Below are positions 451 through 13,599 of a DNA stretch of 38,537 nucleotides, piece after piece (the stretch's first letter is position 1; the number at the start of each line of letters is the position of its first letter). The position numbers and the translations under genes were made by a program. Source of the stretch: an uncultured Bacteroidales bacterium. GTDB lineage: Bacteria; Bacteroidota; Bacteroidia; Bacteroidales; UBA932. Location of the stretch: contig ONKO01000017.1 of assembly GCA_900318445.1 (NCBI GenBank), positions 1 to 38,537 of the forward strand, read 5' to 3'. Under the pieces are notes generated by a model. That model had not been told where the DNA came from. It saw only the letters and a program-made list of their open reading frames with translations, and ran no database searches.

Positions 451-2319
451 TTAAATATTTTTCAACGTTTCTTTGATAAGTTCGCAGAGGGACTCCGTAT
501 CCAGGCCGCAGAGGGCGCGCTGGGCTTTCTGGGTATCCTGGTGGATGAAGACGTCGGGGATGCCTGCACCTTTTATAATAGGAGCATCGGCCTGCCCGGA
601 AAAATATTCGCTCACCGCGCCGAAAAGACCGCCCTTCAGGGCGCCGTCCTCCACGGTGATGATGCGCTTGCAGCGGGAGACTTCCTGGAGGATTTCCTCA
701 TCCAGCGGCTTTACAAAGCGCATGTCATACACGGCGACGGATTTTTCCGGGCATTTATTGGCCGCTTCCAACGCCCGGTTCACAACGGGACCGACTCCGA
801 GGATAGCGACATCGGCCCCGTCCTTTAATTTCTCGCCCCTGCCGATGGGGATAGCCTCGCAGGGGGCGTTTTTCCAGTCTGTGCCTTCGCCGATTCCGCG
901 GGGGTAGCGGATGATGAGGGGACCGCCTTCCAGGGAAAGGCCGGTGTACATGAGGCGTTTGAGTTCTGTCTCGTTACGCGGCGCGGCTACGGTGACGCCG
1001 GGGATACTGCGGTAGGCTGCCATATCGAAGCAGCCGTGGTGGGTGGCGCCGTCCTCCCCTACCAGGCCGGCACGGTCAAAGCAGAGTACTACGGGCAGGC
1101 CCTGCAGGGCTACGTCGTGGATAATGTTGTCGTAGGCACGCTGGGAGAAGGACGAATAGATATTGCAGTAGGGCTTGAGTCCGGCGGCGGCAAGGCCGGC
1201 CGAGAACGTAACGGCATGGCCTTCCTCGATACCTACGTCGAAGAATCGTCTGGGGAAGGCGGCGGCAAAGGCGGTCATGCCGCAGCCGCTGGCCATGGCG
1301 GGGGTGACACCCACCACCTTTTCGTCCATCCGGGCCAGTTCCGTGAGAACTTCTCCAAAAACGTCTTGATAACGCGAGACGGGGTAATTCGTCTTCACGC
1401 GCTCACCGGTTTCGGGGTTGAAACGGCCGGGGGCGTGCCAGACGGTGGGATTGGCCTCGGCGGGGGCGTAACCGCAGCCCTTACGTGTGTGGATGTGCAG
1501 AAGGCGCGGGCCGTGGAGGTTCTTGATGCGCTCCAGCGTAGCGGTCATCTGTTCCAGGTCGTTGCCGTCGATGGGGCCGAAATAGCGGAACCCCAGCGCC
1601 TCGAAAACGGCGCCGCCGCTGGAGCGTACCAGGTTGGACTTGGTGTCAATGACGCGCTTCTGGATCCAGTCACGGGTTTTTCCCTCTCCCATGGCGTTCC
1701 ACACCCTGTTTTTGAGACGGTTGTAGAAGGGATGGGTGGTGAGATTGAGAAGGTAGTTATGAACGCCTCCGGTGTTCTGGTCGATGGAGATATTGTTGTC
1801 GTTGAGGATGATGAGGATGTCGGCCTTGGAGGAGCCGGCGTTGTTAAGGCCCTCCCAGGCGAGGCCGCCGGTAAGGGCGCCGTCTCCGATAACGGCTACG
1901 GCCTTGTCTGCGCTGCCGGTAAGGCGCGCGGCCTCGGCAAAGCCCAGTGCGGCCGATATGGAAGTGGAAGAGTGACCGGCGCCAAAAGCGTCGTACGGGC
2001 TCTCGCTGCGTTTTGGGAAACCGCTGATACCATTTTTTTTGCGGTTGGCCTTGAAGGCTTCCCGCCGGCCGGTAAGGATTTTGTGGGCATAGGCCTGATG
2101 GCCCACGTCAAACACAATCTTGTCCTCAGGGGTGTTGTAGATGGTATGCAGCGCCACAATCAGTTCCACAGCACCCAGGCTGGAACCCAGATGCCCCGGA
2201 TTCACGGCGCAGCACTCCACCATATACCGGCGAAGCTCTGCGCACAATTGTTTGAGCTGACTCATGTCCAGACCTTTCAGGTCCTCGGGGCTGTTGATGG
2301 TTTCCAGAAGTTCGTACAT
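451..2319 (-). CDS. dxs: 1-deoxy-D-xylulose-5-phosphate synthase
   Basis: A thiamine-diphosphate enzyme that condenses pyruvate and glyceraldehyde 3-phosphate, the first step of the MEP isoprenoid pathway, in the cytosol. The 622-aa product shows the N-terminal VFDVGHQAYAHKILTGR block, the TPP-binding GDGALTGGLAWEGLNNAG motif, the transketolase central domain (GIEEGHAVTFSAGLA) and a C-terminal transketolase domain ending near ITVEDGALKGGLFGAV. Length fits the family (about 620-640). The frame stays open 49 codons further upstream to 2466, but that extension is translated repeat DNA. The start at MYELLETINSPEDL matches the family N-terminus and lies just after a -7 box, so I use 2319. The gene is followed directly by the tRNA promoter. 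A polyprenyl synthetase that would use its downstream products is encoded at 16648. Confidence 0.96.
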   Translation of the reverse strand: MYELLETINSPEDLKGLDMSQLKQLCAELRRYMVECCAVNPGHLGSSLGAVELIVALHTIYNTPEDKIVFDVGHQAYAHKILTGRREAFKANRKKNGISGFPKRSESPYDAFGAGHSSTSISAALGFAEAARLTGSADKAVAVIGDGALTGGLAWEGLNNAGSSKADILIILNDNNISIDQNTGGVHNYLLNLTTHPFYNRLKNRVWNAMGEGKTRDWIQKRVIDTKSNLVRSSGGAVFEALGFRYFGPIDGNDLEQMTATLERIKNLHGPRLLHIHTRKGCGYAPAEANPTVWHAPGRFNPETGERVKTNYPVSRYQDVFGEVLTELARMDEKVVGVTPAMASGCGMTAFAAAFPRRFFDVGIEEGHAVTFSAGLAAAGLKPYCNIYSSFSQRAYDNIIHDVALQGLPVVLCFDRAGLVGEDGATHHGCFDMAAYRSIPGVTVAAPRNETELKRLMYTGLSLEGGPLIIRYPRGIGEGTDWKNAPCEAIPIGRGEKLKDGADVAILGVGPVVNRALEAANKCPEKSVAVYDMRFVKPLDEEILQEVSRCKRIITVEDGALKGGLFGAVSEYFSGQADAPIIKGAGIPDVFIHQDTQKAQRALCGLDTESLCELIKETLKNI

Positions 2320-2325
2320 AGTGTA

Positions 2326-2356
2326 CAAAGGTAAGCATTTTTCGGGCAACCTCAAA
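2326..2356 (-). promoter_or_regulatory. dxs promoter, apparently leaderless
   Basis: On the minus strand TTTG (2353-2356), a 19-nt spacer, then TACCTTTG (2326-2333), a full consensus match. Only six bases (TACACT) separate the -7 box from the dxs ATG, so the mRNA would start within a few bases of the start codon. The -33 box lies at the outer, eroded edge of the first repeat unit of the neighbouring transposase array. Confidence 0.8.
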
Positions 2357-2437
2357 CTTAGCATTTTCGCCTTTTTTGTCCGATTTTGGAAACGGTTCAG
2401 CGCCAAATCGGACATTTTTGGCGTTTTTGTCCGATTT
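2351..2437 (+). repeat. Palindromic repeat unit U1 (RAYT-associated), upstream copy
   Basis: Two hairpin modules are joined by a spacer GGAAACGGTTCAGCGCC. The first (about 2351-2390) keeps its right arm TGTCCGATTTTGG, but the left arm is eroded. The second (2405-2437) is a perfect 10-bp palindrome: AAATCGGACA, a 13-nt loop TTTTTGGCGTTTT, then TGTCCGATTT. The same two-module layout recurs at 3555-3641 and, inverted, at 7539-7634. The unit lies between the divergent dxs and transposase genes. Further degenerate arms (CACGACA...GCGCGATTTG) are seen around 2453-2493. Confidence 0.85.
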
Positions 2438-2509
2438 TTCCCGAGGCGCTTCCCAAAACACGACATTTCGGCGGTTTTTGCGCGATTTGAGCCGGGCCTG
2501 TGAGAAACG

Positions 2510-2540
2510 CAATGCGGTTTTAGCCCCTAAAATCGCATTG
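2510..2540. repeat. 13-bp hairpin in the dxs-transposase intergenic region
   Basis: CAATGCGGTTTTA (2510-2522), loop GCCCC, TAAAATCGCATTG (2528-2540). The arms pair over 13 positions with one G-T wobble. It differs in sequence from the flanking palindromic family. Function is unknown; it could be a transposition end, a terminator-like structure without a clear T tract, or an operator. Confidence 0.6.
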
Positions 2541-2591
2541 TATTTGAACGGGAATCGGACATAGAACATTCTGTGACTGCGATTTTTACGA

Positions 2592-2638
2592 TTATCCGTT
2601 TCATTTTTGAAGAAACGGATAAGTGTTTCGAACTTTGC
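2592..2638 (+). promoter_or_regulatory. Transposase promoter overlapped by an 11-bp palindrome
   Basis: TTATCCGTTTC (2592-2602) and GAAACGGATAA (2612-2622) form a perfect 11-bp inverted repeat around a 9-nt loop. TTTG in that loop (2606-2609) is spaced 20 nt from GAACTTTGC (2630-2638), a one-base deviation from the -7 consensus. The transposase ATG follows after only three more bases. The palindrome therefore covers the -33 element, where a repressor or the transposase itself could bind (inference). Confidence 0.55.
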
Positions 2639-2641
2639 ATC

Positions 2642-3547
2642 ATGGGTAAAAGAGAAACATATCGCTCGTGGAGGAAGGGTTACTACCACTTAAGTACAGA
2701 CGGGCTGTCGGGCCGGGACATCTTTACGGATGCCTCTGAATTTGCGACCGGCAATATACTGCTGGGGCTTATTTCCGTCAAGTTCAATATTAAGATCTAT
2801 GCGCATTCACTCATGCCCAACCATATTCATCTGGCACTTAGCGGAACTGGAGCAGATTGTGTCCAGGCATTCGATTACCTGAAGAGGAAACTATCGGCCA
2901 TGATGAAGCGTTCGGGGCGGGACCCGTTACCGGAGGACTACGGATTCAACCTGGAGCCGGTCGAGACGCCCGAAAAGATGCAAGGTGAGATTATCTATAT
3001 CCTAAGGAATGCTTTGGAGAAGGGGCTTGGGATGGTGGGCTCCTACTTGTGGGATTCCGGTTGGATGTACTATTCGAAGGAGTGGCCGGCCCTACTCGGC
3101 TGCGACTCTTCTTTCAAACTCTCCCAGCGGGAACTCACAAGACGGATAGGCGGTGTGGAGGATATTCCATCCAACTGGCAGTTCCACCCGTATCTGGGGC
3201 TAAATCCTTATTGCTTTGTGGACACATCGCTCGTCCATCAGCTGTTTCCTTCACCCAAGGACCTCCAGACTGCCCTGGTAAAAGACTACGAGGTTCAGTT
3301 CCAAATTGCACGTCGCCTGGGCGAACTCTCCTCTTTCAACAAAACCGAAATGGAGAGCATGGTAACCCAAATCCTGAACAGGTGTTTTGACGGCCGGCCC
3401 CTCAAAGCGCTCTCGGATGATGACAAAGCCAAACTCACCATTATCCTCCATCGTGAACTGGGCTGGAACTCCTATCAAATCTCTACCACCATCTATATAA
3501 AGGAAAAGACCATCCGCCAGCTCCTCTCCTCCAAAGAACTTCGTTAA
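2642..3547 (+). CDS. REP-associated tyrosine transposase-like protein (Y1/HUH)
   Basis: A 301-aa Y1_Tnp-family protein. It carries the HUH metal-binding motif MPNHIHLAL (His61, His63) and a candidate catalytic Tyr119 in IIYILRNALEKGL, equivalent to the YxxxNP-type helix of RAYT proteins. A YLWDSGWMYYS block follows. Residues from about 150 form an extension beyond the usual 150-220 aa RAYT size. It ends in a segment (GWNSYQISTTIYIKEKTIRQLL) that resembles a helix-turn-helix. Such enzymes nick and join single-stranded DNA at palindromic repeats and are normally single-copy and domesticated. Matching palindromes flank the gene and recur nearby. The frame is open from 2573, but family similarity begins at MGKRETYRSW, three bases past a -7-like box, so 2642 is chosen. 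Confidence 0.82.
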   Translation: MGKRETYRSWRKGYYHLSTDGLSGRDIFTDASEFATGNILLGLISVKFNIKIYAHSLMPNHIHLALSGTGADCVQAFDYLKRKLSAMMKRSGRDPLPEDYGFNLEPVETPEKMQGEIIYILRNALEKGLGMVGSYLWDSGWMYYSKEWPALLGCDSSFKLSQRELTRRIGGVEDIPSNWQFHPYLGLNPYCFVDTSLVHQLFPSPKDLQTALVKDYEVQFQIARRLGELSSFNKTEMESMVTQILNRCFDGRPLKALSDDDKAKLTIILHRELGWNSYQISTTIYIKEKTIRQLLSSKELR

Positions 3548-3554
3548 TCCTTCT

Positions 3555-3641
3555 CCAAAATCCGACATTTTTGGCAATTTTGTCCGATTTTGGAAACGAC
3601 TCAGCGCCAAATCGGACAAAAACGCCAAAAATGTCCGATTT
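3555..3641 (+). repeat. Palindromic repeat unit U2 (RAYT-associated), downstream copy
   Basis: It starts 7 bp after the transposase stop. Module one (3555-3593) has arms CCAAAATCCGACA and TGTCCGATTTTGG, 13 bp with one mismatch. Module two (3609-3641) is the 10-bp palindrome AAATCGGACA/TGTCCGATTT with loop AAAACGCCAAAAA, the exact reverse complement of the upstream copy at 2405-2437. The spacer between modules is GAAACGACTCAGCGCC. Its hairpins may also terminate transposase transcription. Confidence 0.88.
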
Positions 3642-3715: not shown

Positions 3716-5341
3716 ATGGCAGATTCTATCAAAACTACCCTCCGTGATTCGGCCGCGATGCGCTGGACAGCCCTGCTGCTCCTGGCCCTGGCCATGTTCT
3801 GCAGTTACATCTTCATGGACATCCTGTCTCCCATCAAGGACCTGATGCAGGAGACCCGCGGGTGGGACAGCGCCGCATTCGGCCGCGAAGAAGGAGCCGA
3901 GGTATTCCTCAACGTGTACGTCTTCTTCCTCATTTTCGCCGGCATCATCCTGGATAAAATGGGCGTCCGCTTCACGGCCGTCCTCTCCGGTGCCGTGATG
4001 CTGTTTGGCGGTATTATCAAGTATTACGCTGTGAGCGAGGCCTTCCTGGGCTCCGGCATCGAAGCCTGGTTCACTACCCATCTTAACTGGAACGGCAACC
4101 TGCCCATCCTCGGAGACGTACTTCCCTTCGTGGACGGCATGCCGGCATCGGCCAAACTGGCCGCACTCGGCTTCATGTTCTTCGGTACCGGCTGCGAGAT
4201 GGCCGGCATCACCGTAAGCCGCGGTATTGTAAAGTGGTTCAAAGGCCGTGAGACGGCGCTGGCCATGGGCTCCGAGATGGCGCTGGCCCGCCTGGGCGTT
4301 GCCACCTGCATGATCTTCAGCCCCTTCTTTGCCAAGCTCGGCGGCAGCGTGGAAGTTTCCCGCAGCGTTGCCTTTGGCGTGGTGCTCCTTTGCATTGCCC
4401 TTATCATGACCATCGTTTACTTCTTCATGGACAAGAAGCTGGACGCCCAGACCGGCGAGGCCGAAGAAAAAGACGACCCCTTCAAGATCAGCGACCTTGG
4501 CAAGATCTTCACCAGCCAGGGCTTCTGGCTGGTCGCCCTCCTGTGCGTGCTCTACTACAGCGCTATCTTCCCCTTCCAGAAGTATGCCGTGAACATGCTG
4601 CAGTGCAACCTTACGCTCAACCCCGCCGAGGCCGGCACCTTCTGGGCCAGCAATACGGTTACTATTGTCCAGTACGTCATTATGCTGCTTGTGGCCGTCT
4701 GCGCTTTCTCCAGCAACTTCTCCAAGCAGAAAGGCCTCAAGTACGGCCTCATGGGCGTTGCCATCGCGGCCCTCATCGTGTACTGCTACATGGGTTACAT
4801 GCGCGGAACCGCAGAGACCATCTTTGCCGTGTTCCCGCTCCTGGCCGTGGCCATTACCCCTATCCTCGGCAACTATGTAGACCACAAGGGCAAGGCTGCC
4901 ACCATGCTCATGCTGGGCTCCATCCTCCTCGTAGTCTGCCACCTCACATTCGCCTTCATCCTGCCTGCCTTCAAGGGTAACGCAGTAGGTGGAACCGCCG
5001 TGGCCTATATCACTATCCTGGTACTCGGCGCCAGCTTCTCGCTGGTTCCCGCAGCCCTCTGGCCTTCCGTTCCCAAGCTGGTGGACGAAAAGATTATCGG
5101 ATCGGCCTACGCCGCCATCTTCTGGATCCAGAACATCGGCCTGGGTCTGTTCCCCACCCTCATCGGCAATGTGCTGGACAGCACCAACGCCGCCGGCACC
5201 GCTGCCCACGACCTCGATTACACCTGGGCACTTGTGATGCTGGCCGCACTGGGCATCGCCGCCCTGCTCATCTCGGTTTACCTTCGCGTGGTAGACAAGA
5301 AGAAGGGATACGGTCTGGAACTTCCCAACATCCAGGATTAG
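3716..5341 (+). CDS. Major facilitator superfamily transporter, MFSD1-like (first of two)
   Basis: A 541-aa polytopic inner-membrane carrier with roughly twelve hydrophobic segments. It shows MFS loop motifs such as LDKMGVRF after TM2 and RGIVKWFKGRETALAMG between TM4 and TM5. A charged central loop (about residues 235-260, AQTGEAEEKDDPFK) separates the two halves. The motif SLVPAALWPSVPKLV near residues 440-455 resembles the MFSD1 group, whose animal member exports dipeptides from lysosomes. The bacterial substrate is not known. A paralogue follows one base after the stop and an SDR gene follows that, suggesting one operon. The upstream region has only a weak -7-like TAATTTAG (3676-3683). 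The palindromic unit U2 ends 75 bp before the start. Confidence 0.85.
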   Translation: MADSIKTTLRDSAAMRWTALLLLALAMFCSYIFMDILSPIKDLMQETRGWDSAAFGREEGAEVFLNVYVFFLIFAGIILDKMGVRFTAVLSGAVMLFGGIIKYYAVSEAFLGSGIEAWFTTHLNWNGNLPILGDVLPFVDGMPASAKLAALGFMFFGTGCEMAGITVSRGIVKWFKGRETALAMGSEMALARLGVATCMIFSPFFAKLGGSVEVSRSVAFGVVLLCIALIMTIVYFFMDKKLDAQTGEAEEKDDPFKISDLGKIFTSQGFWLVALLCVLYYSAIFPFQKYAVNMLQCNLTLNPAEAGTFWASNTVTIVQYVIMLLVAVCAFSSNFSKQKGLKYGLMGVAIAALIVYCYMGYMRGTAETIFAVFPLLAVAITPILGNYVDHKGKAATMLMLGSILLVVCHLTFAFILPAFKGNAVGGTAVAYITILVLGASFSLVPAALWPSVPKLVDEKIIGSAYAAIFWIQNIGLGLFPTLIGNVLDSTNAAGTAAHDLDYTWALVMLAALGIAALLISVYLRVVDKKKGYGLELPNIQD

Positions 5342-5342
5342 C

Positions 5343-6710
5343 ATGGCCGCCACTACTCAGCAGAAATTCTACAGGTCAGCAGCTTGGTTGGTGCTGGCCT
5401 GTTTGGTAGTACCCATGTTCGCATCGTACTACTTTGACGATATGTTCTCCAGCATCTCGTATCTGTTCGAAGATGCTTCCCTTACGCAGCTGGGCTGGGA
5501 CGCCGCCGGTTACGGACTGTATGCCAGCGGATACAGCGTGCTGTGCGTCTTTGGCGGCCTCGTCATCGGCGGTATCCTCCTGGACAAATGGGGTGTCCGC
5601 TTTTCCGGCAGCCTGTTTGTGATCATGATGGCCGGCGGTGCCGGACTGGTGCTGTGGGCCCTTCTCAGCGGGTCATCGGCCTCCCTTACCCTGGCCTACG
5701 TAGGCGTCATGCTCTTCGGGCTGGGCAGTGAGATTGCCGGTACCGCCGTCACGCGAAGCATCGCCCGGTGGTTCAAAGGCGGGCCGATGGCCTTCGCCAT
5801 GGGCGTCCAGCTGGCTGTCGCCAGGCTGGGCACCGCCTTCGCGCTGGTGCTGTCCCCGAAGCTGGTCCAGGAGCAGGCCGGTCATGTTTACACCCTGGCC
5901 GAAACCGCTCGCCCCGCCGTGGTGGGCATGGGCCTGATGGCGCTGGGCCTTATCCTGTGGGCCGTGTTCGTGGCCCTCGATGCATCGGCTGGAAAAAAGC
6001 GCCACGAAGAGCGCGAAACCCTGAAGACAAAAACCCCCGACAGCGCCTCCGAGCCTGCCGGTTCCCCCGAAGACGAATTCCGTTTCTCGGACGTTATCAA
6101 AGTGCTGGGAAACCGCAATTTCTGGCTGCTGGGACTGCTGTGTGTCCTCTTCTACAGCAGCGTCATCGCGTTCAAGAAGTTCGCGGGCGCCATCCTTATC
6201 CCCCGTTTTGACATCCCTGCCCAGACGGCCGGCTGGATGATTTCCATGCTGCCGTTCTCCACGGTGGTATTTGCTCCGCTTTTTGGTATCCTCGTTGATA
6301 AAGTGGGGCATGGAACCCGCTGGATGTTGGCAGGCGCTGTCCTGGCCCTGGTGGCTCATGTCCTGCTGGCTTTTGCTCCGGCCGGGGTACCGTTCTGGGG
6401 CTACCTGGCCATGGTGCTGCTGGGCTTTGGCTACTCGCTGGTTCCCGCCGCCCTTTGGCCTTCTGTCCCCAAGATTGTGCCGGACAAGGTGCTGGGCACC
6501 ACCTACGCCCTCATCAACTGGGTGCAGAACCTGGGGCTTCTGAGTTTCAAGTGGCTCTCGGGCGTCATCCTGGGAACGGGCTCCGAGGGGCCTGTCCATG
6601 TGGAAATGATGTTCAGCGCCCTGTGTGTGCTGGCTGTTGCGGTGGCGGTGATTTTCCGCCGTACGTCGGCCCGTCATCCCGAATTACAGTTAGACAAAGC
6701 CAACCGATGA
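5343..6710 (+). CDS. Major facilitator superfamily transporter, MFSD1-like (second of two)
   Basis: A 455-aa membrane carrier, paralogous to the preceding gene. The shared signatures are LDKWGVRF, SIARWFKGGPMAFAMG, the FRFSDVIKVLGNRNFWLLGLLCVLFYSS segment after a charged central loop, and YSLVPAALWPSVPKIVPDKVLGTTYALINWVQNLGL near the C-terminus. It is about 85 residues shorter than its neighbour, mainly in periplasmic and central loops. The start lies one base after the upstream stop and its stop overlaps the next start (ATGA). The two proteins may form a heterodimer or carry different substrates. Function beyond MFS transport is not evident. Confidence 0.85.
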   Translation: MAATTQQKFYRSAAWLVLACLVVPMFASYYFDDMFSSISYLFEDASLTQLGWDAAGYGLYASGYSVLCVFGGLVIGGILLDKWGVRFSGSLFVIMMAGGAGLVLWALLSGSSASLTLAYVGVMLFGLGSEIAGTAVTRSIARWFKGGPMAFAMGVQLAVARLGTAFALVLSPKLVQEQAGHVYTLAETARPAVVGMGLMALGLILWAVFVALDASAGKKRHEERETLKTKTPDSASEPAGSPEDEFRFSDVIKVLGNRNFWLLGLLCVLFYSSVIAFKKFAGAILIPRFDIPAQTAGWMISMLPFSTVVFAPLFGILVDKVGHGTRWMLAGAVLALVAHVLLAFAPAGVPFWGYLAMVLLGFGYSLVPAALWPSVPKIVPDKVLGTTYALINWVQNLGLLSFKWLSGVILGTGSEGPVHVEMMFSALCVLAVAVAVIFRRTSARHPELQLDKANR

Positions 6711-7538: not shown

Positions 7539-7634
7539 TCAGCGCCAAATCGGACATTTTTCGCGGGTTTTGTCCGATTTGGCGCTGAGTCGTTTCCAAA
7601 ATCGGACAAAAAAGGCAAAAATGTCGGATTTTGG
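7539..7634 (-). repeat. Palindromic repeat unit U3, inverted relative to U1/U2
   Basis: Read on the minus strand, this repeats U2 almost exactly outside the loops. Hairpin 7596-7634 has arms CCAAAATCGGACA and TGTCGGATTTTGG with the same single mismatch as U2. Hairpin 7539-7588 has a longer, perfect 18-bp stem (TCAGCGCCAAATCGGACA and its complement at 7571-7588) around a 14-nt loop. It lies 16 bp after the SDR gene and could terminate that operon. Confidence 0.86.
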
Positions 7635-7649
7635 AGAAAGTCACCAGAG

Positions 7650-7682
7650 AAATCGGACAAAAACGGCGAAAATGTCCGATTT
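7650..7682. repeat. Single palindromic module of the RAYT-associated family
   Basis: AAATCGGACA (7650-7659), a 13-nt loop AAAACGGCGAAAA, TGTCCGATTT (7673-7682). It is a perfect 10-bp palindrome of the same family. It sits 15 bp beyond unit U3 with no second module of its own. Confidence 0.85.
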
Positions 7683-13487: not shown

Positions 13488-13569
13488 TAACGCGAAAAAC
13501 CCGGAAAAGTGCGTTACTGCCTCCCCCTAGTGGGAACGTGTAACACGTTTTTCCGGGTTTTTCGCGTTA
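13488..13569 (+). repeat. 82-bp long-hairpin element, copy 1
   Basis: The outer arms are 21 bp and perfectly complementary (starting TAACGCGAAAAACCCGGAA; ending with its complement). The inner arms GCGTTAC and GTAACAC pair with one mismatch, leaving a loop containing CCCCCTAGTGGG. The stem contains A5-CCCGG-A4 and T4-CCGGG-T5, the shape of a bidirectional intrinsic terminator. The reverse complement of copy 2 (15229-15310) is identical at 80 of 82 positions. The two differences are positions 5 and 78, which pair with each other. Confidence 0.9.
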
Positions 13570-13599
13570 CTGGTCTAATATGCATTAGCACATTTTTTG

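Follow-up and report, generated by a model that had tools for sequence, protein, structure and literature searches.

The stretch of DNA analysed here (hereafter the window, 38,537 nucleotides of contig ONKO01000017.1 from an uncultured Bacteroidales bacterium) encodes a protein resembling the REP-associated tyrosine transposases (RAYTs; REP, repetitive extragenic palindrome), and its gene, an intact reading frame of 906 bp (2642-3547), is bracketed by arrays of a short palindromic repeat. A first-pass annotation of the same letters had reported two 33-bp palindromes, at 2405-2437 and 3609-3641, as an inverted pair flanking the gene. Both lie at these positions, are exact reverse complements and stand on either side of the gene; they are, however, not a lone pair but units of tandem arrays with an exact step of 51 bp. 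Similarly, the palindrome loops are flipped between the two sides, but both gene-bracketing arrays are given the same orientation because of their 18-nt spacers (TGGAAACG..TCAGCGCC). The features of the system in the window are as follows.

2642..3547, + strand: RAYT-like HUH/Y1 transposase, 301 amino acids (aa), catalytic H61, H63 and Y119; TnpA_REP-like part at about residues 1-231, C-terminal helical (helix-turn-helix-like, HTH-like) part at about 232-301
2354..2488, - strand (a convention, set from the spacers): upstream array, three 33-bp palindromic units, step 51 bp; 2354-2386 (5 mismatches), 2405-2437 (0) and 2456-2488 (5)
3558..3641, - strand (orientation as in the upstream array): downstream array, two units, step 51 bp, spacer TGGAAACGACTCAGCGCC; 3558-3590 (1 mismatch) and 3609-3641 (0)
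7547..7682, + strand: third array, window repeat type, opposite orientation; 7547-7580 (34 nt, loop 14), 7599-7631 and 7650-7682

The spacer at 7581-7598 of the third array is the reverse complement of the 18-nt spacer in the gene-bracketing arrays. When folded as single strands, six stretches of the window reach z-scores of -2.6 to -4.1 against dinucleotide shuffles.

The palindromes flanking the gene also recur elsewhere in the genome. With at most three mismatches, the pattern AAATCGGACA-N13-TGTCCGATTT occurs at 25 places in the 2.31-Mb genome (5 in the window, 20 outside it), against none for its reversed control, and among the listed gaps below 400 bp between successive places, 12 of 13 measure exactly 51 bp and one 390. 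Across the 120 other genomes of the genus, 10 hold one degenerate place each (2-3 mismatches) and 2 hold a control place. An exact-pattern search in 18 genomes gave 21 forward and 20 reverse places in the window genome and 12 places in the genome of L107 (loci carry L numbers), an orthologue 55% identical to the window protein that has similar repeats there; 14 of the 16 other genomes, reached via related loci, have no place and 2 have one. The first-pass annotation had named absence of the palindrome elsewhere in the genome, or equal frequency in relatives lacking the transposase, as outcomes contrary to its proposal. Given the 25 places against 0 in the control and the rarity in 120 genomes, neither is what we see, and the proposal therefore passes its own test.

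The classical guide of REP sequences is missing from these units, as first suspected from the letters. In the 12 nt 5' of the stem, GTAG, GTGG and GGAG are absent from both strands of all 25 window-type units (GT[AG]G at the hairpin foot, 0/25); when GTAC is added to these three, it is the only one found, 3 times in the 25 units with both strands counted, and a guide tetranucleotide for the window repeat was rejected. Many arrays share a loop core made of four to five A/T, GGC or GCC, and again four to five A/T. In its strict form, this motif is present in 28 of 53 arrays (shuffled mean 0.1 of 53) versus 3 of the 175 segments taken from far flanks, and in a loose form in 45 of 53 (shuffled mean 5.9 of 53) versus 25 of 175; the 53 arrays are representatives of 68 loci with arrays, and the two units counted in each give about two chances for the motif. 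As automatic single-loop stem finding confused the two symmetry centres of the units, it was replaced by a symmetry profile. With the centre picked from inner pairs only, outer pairing at 18-26 bp from it amounts to 0.37 versus 0.26 in controls (53 loci with arrays of a set of 63, from which L154 and L155 were also left out; 442 cells). In the repeat type of the paralogue L027, what looks like a spacer forms an outer stem, CAGCA...TGCTG, that contains an internal loop, and the hairpin therefore fills the whole 52-bp period. Finally, L107 combines a loop of 14 with a step of 52 and the window type a loop of 13 with a step of 51, as if one loop base set one base of the step.

A step of about 52 bp is a trait of the family. 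Homologues at E 1e-10 or better are present in 90 of 121 genomes of the genus (window genome included), and a single genome can hold as many as eight. Among 393 genomes drawn from 206 genera of the order, where only six candidates were scored in many genomes, matches at E 1e-20 were confined to three genomes, all of the window's genus. The near full-length named relatives are mostly rumen or reticulum Bacteroidales metagenome-assembled genomes (MAGs), with one distant match in Candidatus Cryptobacteroides faecigallinarum; the genus of the window is likely of the Cryptobacteroides type. Homologue loci were gathered with a narrower alignment (A2), a broad one (A1) having given no conserved stretch; of 80 profile-search loci, 65 were used for the step count, the partial L153 and L156 and the other-phylum partial L157-L169 being left out. 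With identity of at least 0.73 over 30 bp in 420-bp flanks on both sides, a period of 51 was found in 15 flanks, 52 in 52 and 53 in 4, and every other period between 25 and 89 stayed at 3 flanks or fewer; in the far flanks (1.1-1.5 kb), period 52 appears in 8 and elsewhere there are single matches. By the same statistic, a step of 50-53 accompanies 18 of the 22 close homologues in the genus, 10 of the 32 distant ones (those below 200 aa were left out of this and the residue comparison), and 0 of 23 RAYT-model loci of other genera, which are those of 29 with an open frame and an HUH motif near the middle (12 over the cut-off of that model, 11 under). Three things were beyond the reach of the first-pass annotation: this family-wide head-to-tail format, the conservation of the loop core and the further repeat families of the genome.

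Those further repeat families belong to paralogues. The transposase had been called single-copy, which holds for its type; the genome nevertheless contains six more homologues, whose identities run from 43 down to 20% (E up to 1). Three of them, 43, 39 and 34% identical to the window protein, have other repeats, at 24, 6 and 34 places, with steps of 53, 51 and 52 and with 20, 1 and 28 places away from the gene's own neighbourhood; the 24 places of the L025 type are in many cases single units. Each of these paralogues thus has its own repeat family. Between loci (68 with arrays of 70), repeat similarity tracks protein identity: a score of at least 40 is reached by 20 of the 21 pairs that are 80% identical or more, by 1 of 11 in the 70-80% range, 3 of 129 at 60-70% and 5 of 143 at 50-60%, and by 1 of 1974 pairs under 50%. 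Once loci at 97% identity or more are collapsed, the same score is reached by 16 of 17 pairs from 80% upwards, by 8 of 258 in the 50-80% range and by 1 of 1805 under 50%. The frameshifted L151 and L152, whose protein identities come out too low, are involved in the sole sharing pair below 50% (L125/L151) and in three of the nine at 50-80%. The stem is rapidly replaced at a conserved unit length. The window repeat itself is most similar to that of L107 (score 39), the next best reaching 31 and the shuffled range topping at 30. The orthologues L026 and L034 (84% identity, two species) have a similar repeat (score 87) and both a 51-bp step, and L025 and its relative L071 both a 53-bp step; the exact step therefore seems to be inherited with the gene.

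The protein carries HUH and a single catalytic tyrosine on a TnpA_REP fold. HUH, Tyr and Asn are invariant in 59 of 59 aligned homologues, the tyrosine context being YILRNA in the window protein, and no conserved W-Q lies between HUH and Tyr (one column has W in 25 of 59, and two further columns have a single W each). Its fold matches TnpA_REP (PDB 4ER8) over 160 of 165 residues, with a score of 14.8 versus 7.8 for TnpA_IS608, while a sequence search of solved structures returned weak Y1 matches only. The window protein stays under the curated NCBIfam and Pfam cut-offs, with 15 bits for the NCBIfam RAYT model NF047646 (cut-off 80) and 12.8 for the NCBIfam IS200 model (cut-off 55), and has no match in PADLOC or PHROGs. 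Among 33 homologues, 25 match NF047646 at E 0.1 or better, the best at 4.3e-9.

We consider it probable that the locus is a RAYT/REP system of a separate subclass, in which hairpin units of fixed length are spread by a TnpA_REP-type enzyme. The window protein would be an HUH/Y1 single-strand DNA endonuclease/ligase of this type with an added C-terminal DNA-binding-like domain. Its substrates would be units of 51-53 nt (50 in some distant members) folding as imperfect hairpins, with a lineage-specific inner stem of ~7-10 bp and, in many members, an apical loop of 13-14 nt built as the loop core described above; in several repeat types, a short outer pairing would absorb the apparent spacer. Since the units stand head to tail, the step would be the unit length. 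We infer that the enzyme binds the folded unit on single-stranded DNA and cleaves and rejoins at or between units, and so may spread and multiply them, often locally. The loop core and unpaired positions, not a 5' GTAG, would determine which strand and site are cleaved. The C-terminal domain may contact the arrays as duplex DNA or control expression, and the gene itself would mostly stay put and be inherited by descent. Alternatively, the arrays could be mainly duplex DNA sites (operators or architectural elements) to which the C-terminal HTH-like domain binds, serving autoregulation or the organisation of the chromosome, and they would be spread by recombination instead of transposition. A ~52-bp step would indeed place such sites on one helical face, five turns apart. 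However, the strict invariance of HUH, Tyr and Asn is unexpected in a pure DNA binder, the C-terminal part folded alone (a low-confidence model) gave no fold match at E 0.001, and the dozens of copies seen for three of the four repeat types exceed what autoregulation needs. We regard this alternative as rather improbable.

The comparison with described systems relies on excerpts of the papers cited. RAYT subclasses were described by Quentin et al. 2018 (PMC6006769), with a basic unit of two REPs of 21-65 nt each in inverted orientation. A 5' GT[AG]G at the hairpin foot characterizes the canonical subclasses 2.2, 2.4, 2.5, 2.7 and 2.8; subclasses 2.6 and 3 are also devoid of it, and 2.6, found in Bacteroidetes, has atypical structures, a median length of 179 aa and the motifs WQ and YIH[QN]NP (PMC6006769). 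Like the E. coli TnpA_REP/RAYT (PDB 4ER8, subclass 2.2), the window system joins a Y1/HUH fold to flanking palindromes of its own with further genome copies, has one repeat family per gene, and its gene does not behave as a multi-copy insertion sequence (IS). It differs from it by the lack of a GTAG foot, the A/T-GGC-A/T loop core and an extra C-terminal domain of ~70 residues. E. coli REPs are known to need an unpaired bulge (PMC8266576, 2021). Unlike the inverted REP pairs described in PMC6006769, the window units stand head to tail with a fixed step of 51-53 bp. With subclass 2.6 (group 5, Table 1, PMC6006769), the system shares atypical flanking structures without GT[AG]G and copies elsewhere in the genome; in contrast, the family is ~300 aa long (301 in the window protein, longer than usual as the first-pass annotation had remarked), with YxxRN and no conserved W-Q, and the excerpts of PMC6006769 make no mention of a ~52-bp step for this subclass. 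TIRYTs (PMC3733652, 2013; mostly subclass 2.1) likewise associate a Y1 protein with inverted, partly self-complementary flanking repeats that can form small families, and subclass 2.1 proteins have a C-terminal HTH domain (PMC6006769), whereas the window repeats form fixed-step tandem arrays in which the GGGGWSAS motif was not seen by eye. In the open-access titles and abstract openings covered (subscription papers, preprints and supplements being outside this scope), REP units of ~52 bp placed head to tail are unannounced.

A core tree of 81 proteins separates the 63 long proteins from 18 RAYT-model proteins of other genera of the order (those of at least 155 aa among 23) with a support of 100/99. 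This branch, the distribution of the repeat and the absent GTAG lend support to the initial idea of a distinct Bacteroidales REP/RAYT lineage with other recognition rules. The system is probably of the RAYT/REP type by fold and layout and a distinct subclass by recognition format, set apart from 2.6 by description. A canonical system lying fully within the known subclasses would account for the fold, the REPtron-like layout, the further genome copies and the single repeat per RAYT, as described for RAYTs (PMC6006769), but it agrees poorly with the missing foot, the length compared with the 179-aa median of subclass 2.6, the 15 bits in the RAYT model, the separate branch and a step that was not found in any of the 23 other-genera loci. 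On these grounds a canonical GTAG REP was rejected, and we hold it to be unlikely, slightly more so than the duplex-site alternative.

The genes next to the system bear on whether it moves as a whole and on what its arrays may do.

454..2319, - strand: dxs, 1-deoxy-D-xylulose-5-phosphate synthase (TIGR00204, 707 bits versus a cut-off of 466)
3716..6710, + strand: two major facilitator superfamily (MFS) transporter genes, 3716-5341 and 5343-6710 (PF07690, 75 and 144 bits)

The dxs gene adjoins the RAYT gene upstream, and also lies beside the orthologous RAYT in several relatives; the MFS block has the downstream array on one side and the inverted third array on the other. In line with what a resident RAYT would show, dxs and/or MFS lie within ~3 kb in 8 of 17 related loci (L102 and L103 being near-copies). 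The MFS block is flipped relative to the RAYT in L093 and L097 and lies upstream in L099, L102 and L103, while the genome of L107 has RAYT-MFS-MFS at the opposite side of dxs, the block being flanked by arrays at both ends. This is consistent with inverted arrays acting as joints for flips of the MFS block. Arrays of one type cluster, with 5, 8 and 5 neighbour pairs closer than 10 kb versus 0.77, 1.75 and 0.88 expected from uniform placement on one line, a null that differs from intergenic placement. Orientation was assigned in 17 array pairs; 12 of them are inverted, a share that is not significant by itself (window-type orientations were assigned by eye, two being left open). Orientation relative to replication was not used as evidence because contigs are unordered and nearby copies occur in both orientations. 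The closest orthologue, L090 (62%), sits on a contig binned as Fibrobacter; since its adjoining dxs is 76% identical to that of the window, mis-binning appears likelier than transfer.

An ordinary IS200/IS605-type element with the palindromes as its ends would also have an HUH/Y1 fold and palindromes on both sides. However, such elements move as multiple near-identical gene copies, and here one gene of its type (closest paralogue 43% identical, in a genome 88% complete) faces 25 repeat places; together with the dxs/MFS neighbours, the IS200 score and a fold nearer to TnpA_REP than to TnpA_IS608, this led us to reject it as very unlikely. A CRISPR-like array with 18-nt spacers, evoked by the 33-bp repeat and constant spacer length, was rejected as well and has practically no chance of being correct, as spacers are alike within one array and some are found again in further arrays, the hairpin of other repeat types includes the spacer, window-type arrays hold only 1-4 units and the protein has no PADLOC match.

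Several observations weigh against a separate RAYT/REP subclass with hairpin units of fixed length. The rule is not universal: 22 of 32 distant homologues are without a 50-53 step, some of the 65 loci have no step above threshold, and the strict loop motif is missing in 25 of 53 arrays. Outer pairing is a signal of the family average only, weak in window-type units and clear in some types such as that of L027, and the L026-type repeat is nearly confined to the surroundings of its gene (5 of 6 places within 4 kb). Neither dxs nor MFS is in view (up to 3 kb) in 9 of 17 related loci. Neither activity, binding nor fresh insertion was observed, though no search for empty sites at base level was made; recombination could also account for local clustering and shared spacers, and close inverted copies do not obviously fit strict lagging-strand targeting. 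Finally, the related loci include near-copies of one genome (L038/L148 at 100%, L102/L103), and most if not all of the genomes are MAGs, that of the window being 88% complete.

The REP transposases that have been studied well share a GTAG guide. With homologues in 90 of 121 genomes, the present family provides a natural series of considerable size: where tested, it has no guide, and a constant unit length and a shared loop core go together with a stem that can vary freely. A recognition code may be readable from covariation in this series, which is also relevant to the way in which short repeats affect the local order of genes in rumen and gut bacteria, a little-studied group. That relatives keep unit length while changing repeat sequence points to what would be an undescribed branch of a known repeat-spreading system. 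We give about even chances to a bolder proposal, a separate RAYT class confined, in the draws made, to one Bacteroidales genus, where the GTAG-guided REP would be replaced by a head-to-tail hairpin unit of about five helical turns. Its A/T-GGC-A/T loop would be the common recognition element and its fast-changing stem a private key, several enzyme/repeat pairs would coexist per genome, and inverted arrays would be the joints where operons flip.

Other arrangements of these repeats were noted. At 13488-13571 of the window, an inverted pair of L025-type units (TAACGCG...GCGTTA) lies between two genes in a REPIN-like layout. L198 (G000:C16:131899-132523) is an L027-type array of 13 units with exact 52-bp steps and 3-4 mismatches per unit. 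The two most distant paralogues of the window genome, L029 (700-2900) and L030 (700-3100), are flanked by other short tandem or inverted repeats of ~21-22 bp, of the GGCGCAGGTTCC and GGACCTGGTCC types, perhaps a second repeat format. In L094, L095 and L101, runs of GGTGGACCAGGTCCAA adjoin the arrays.
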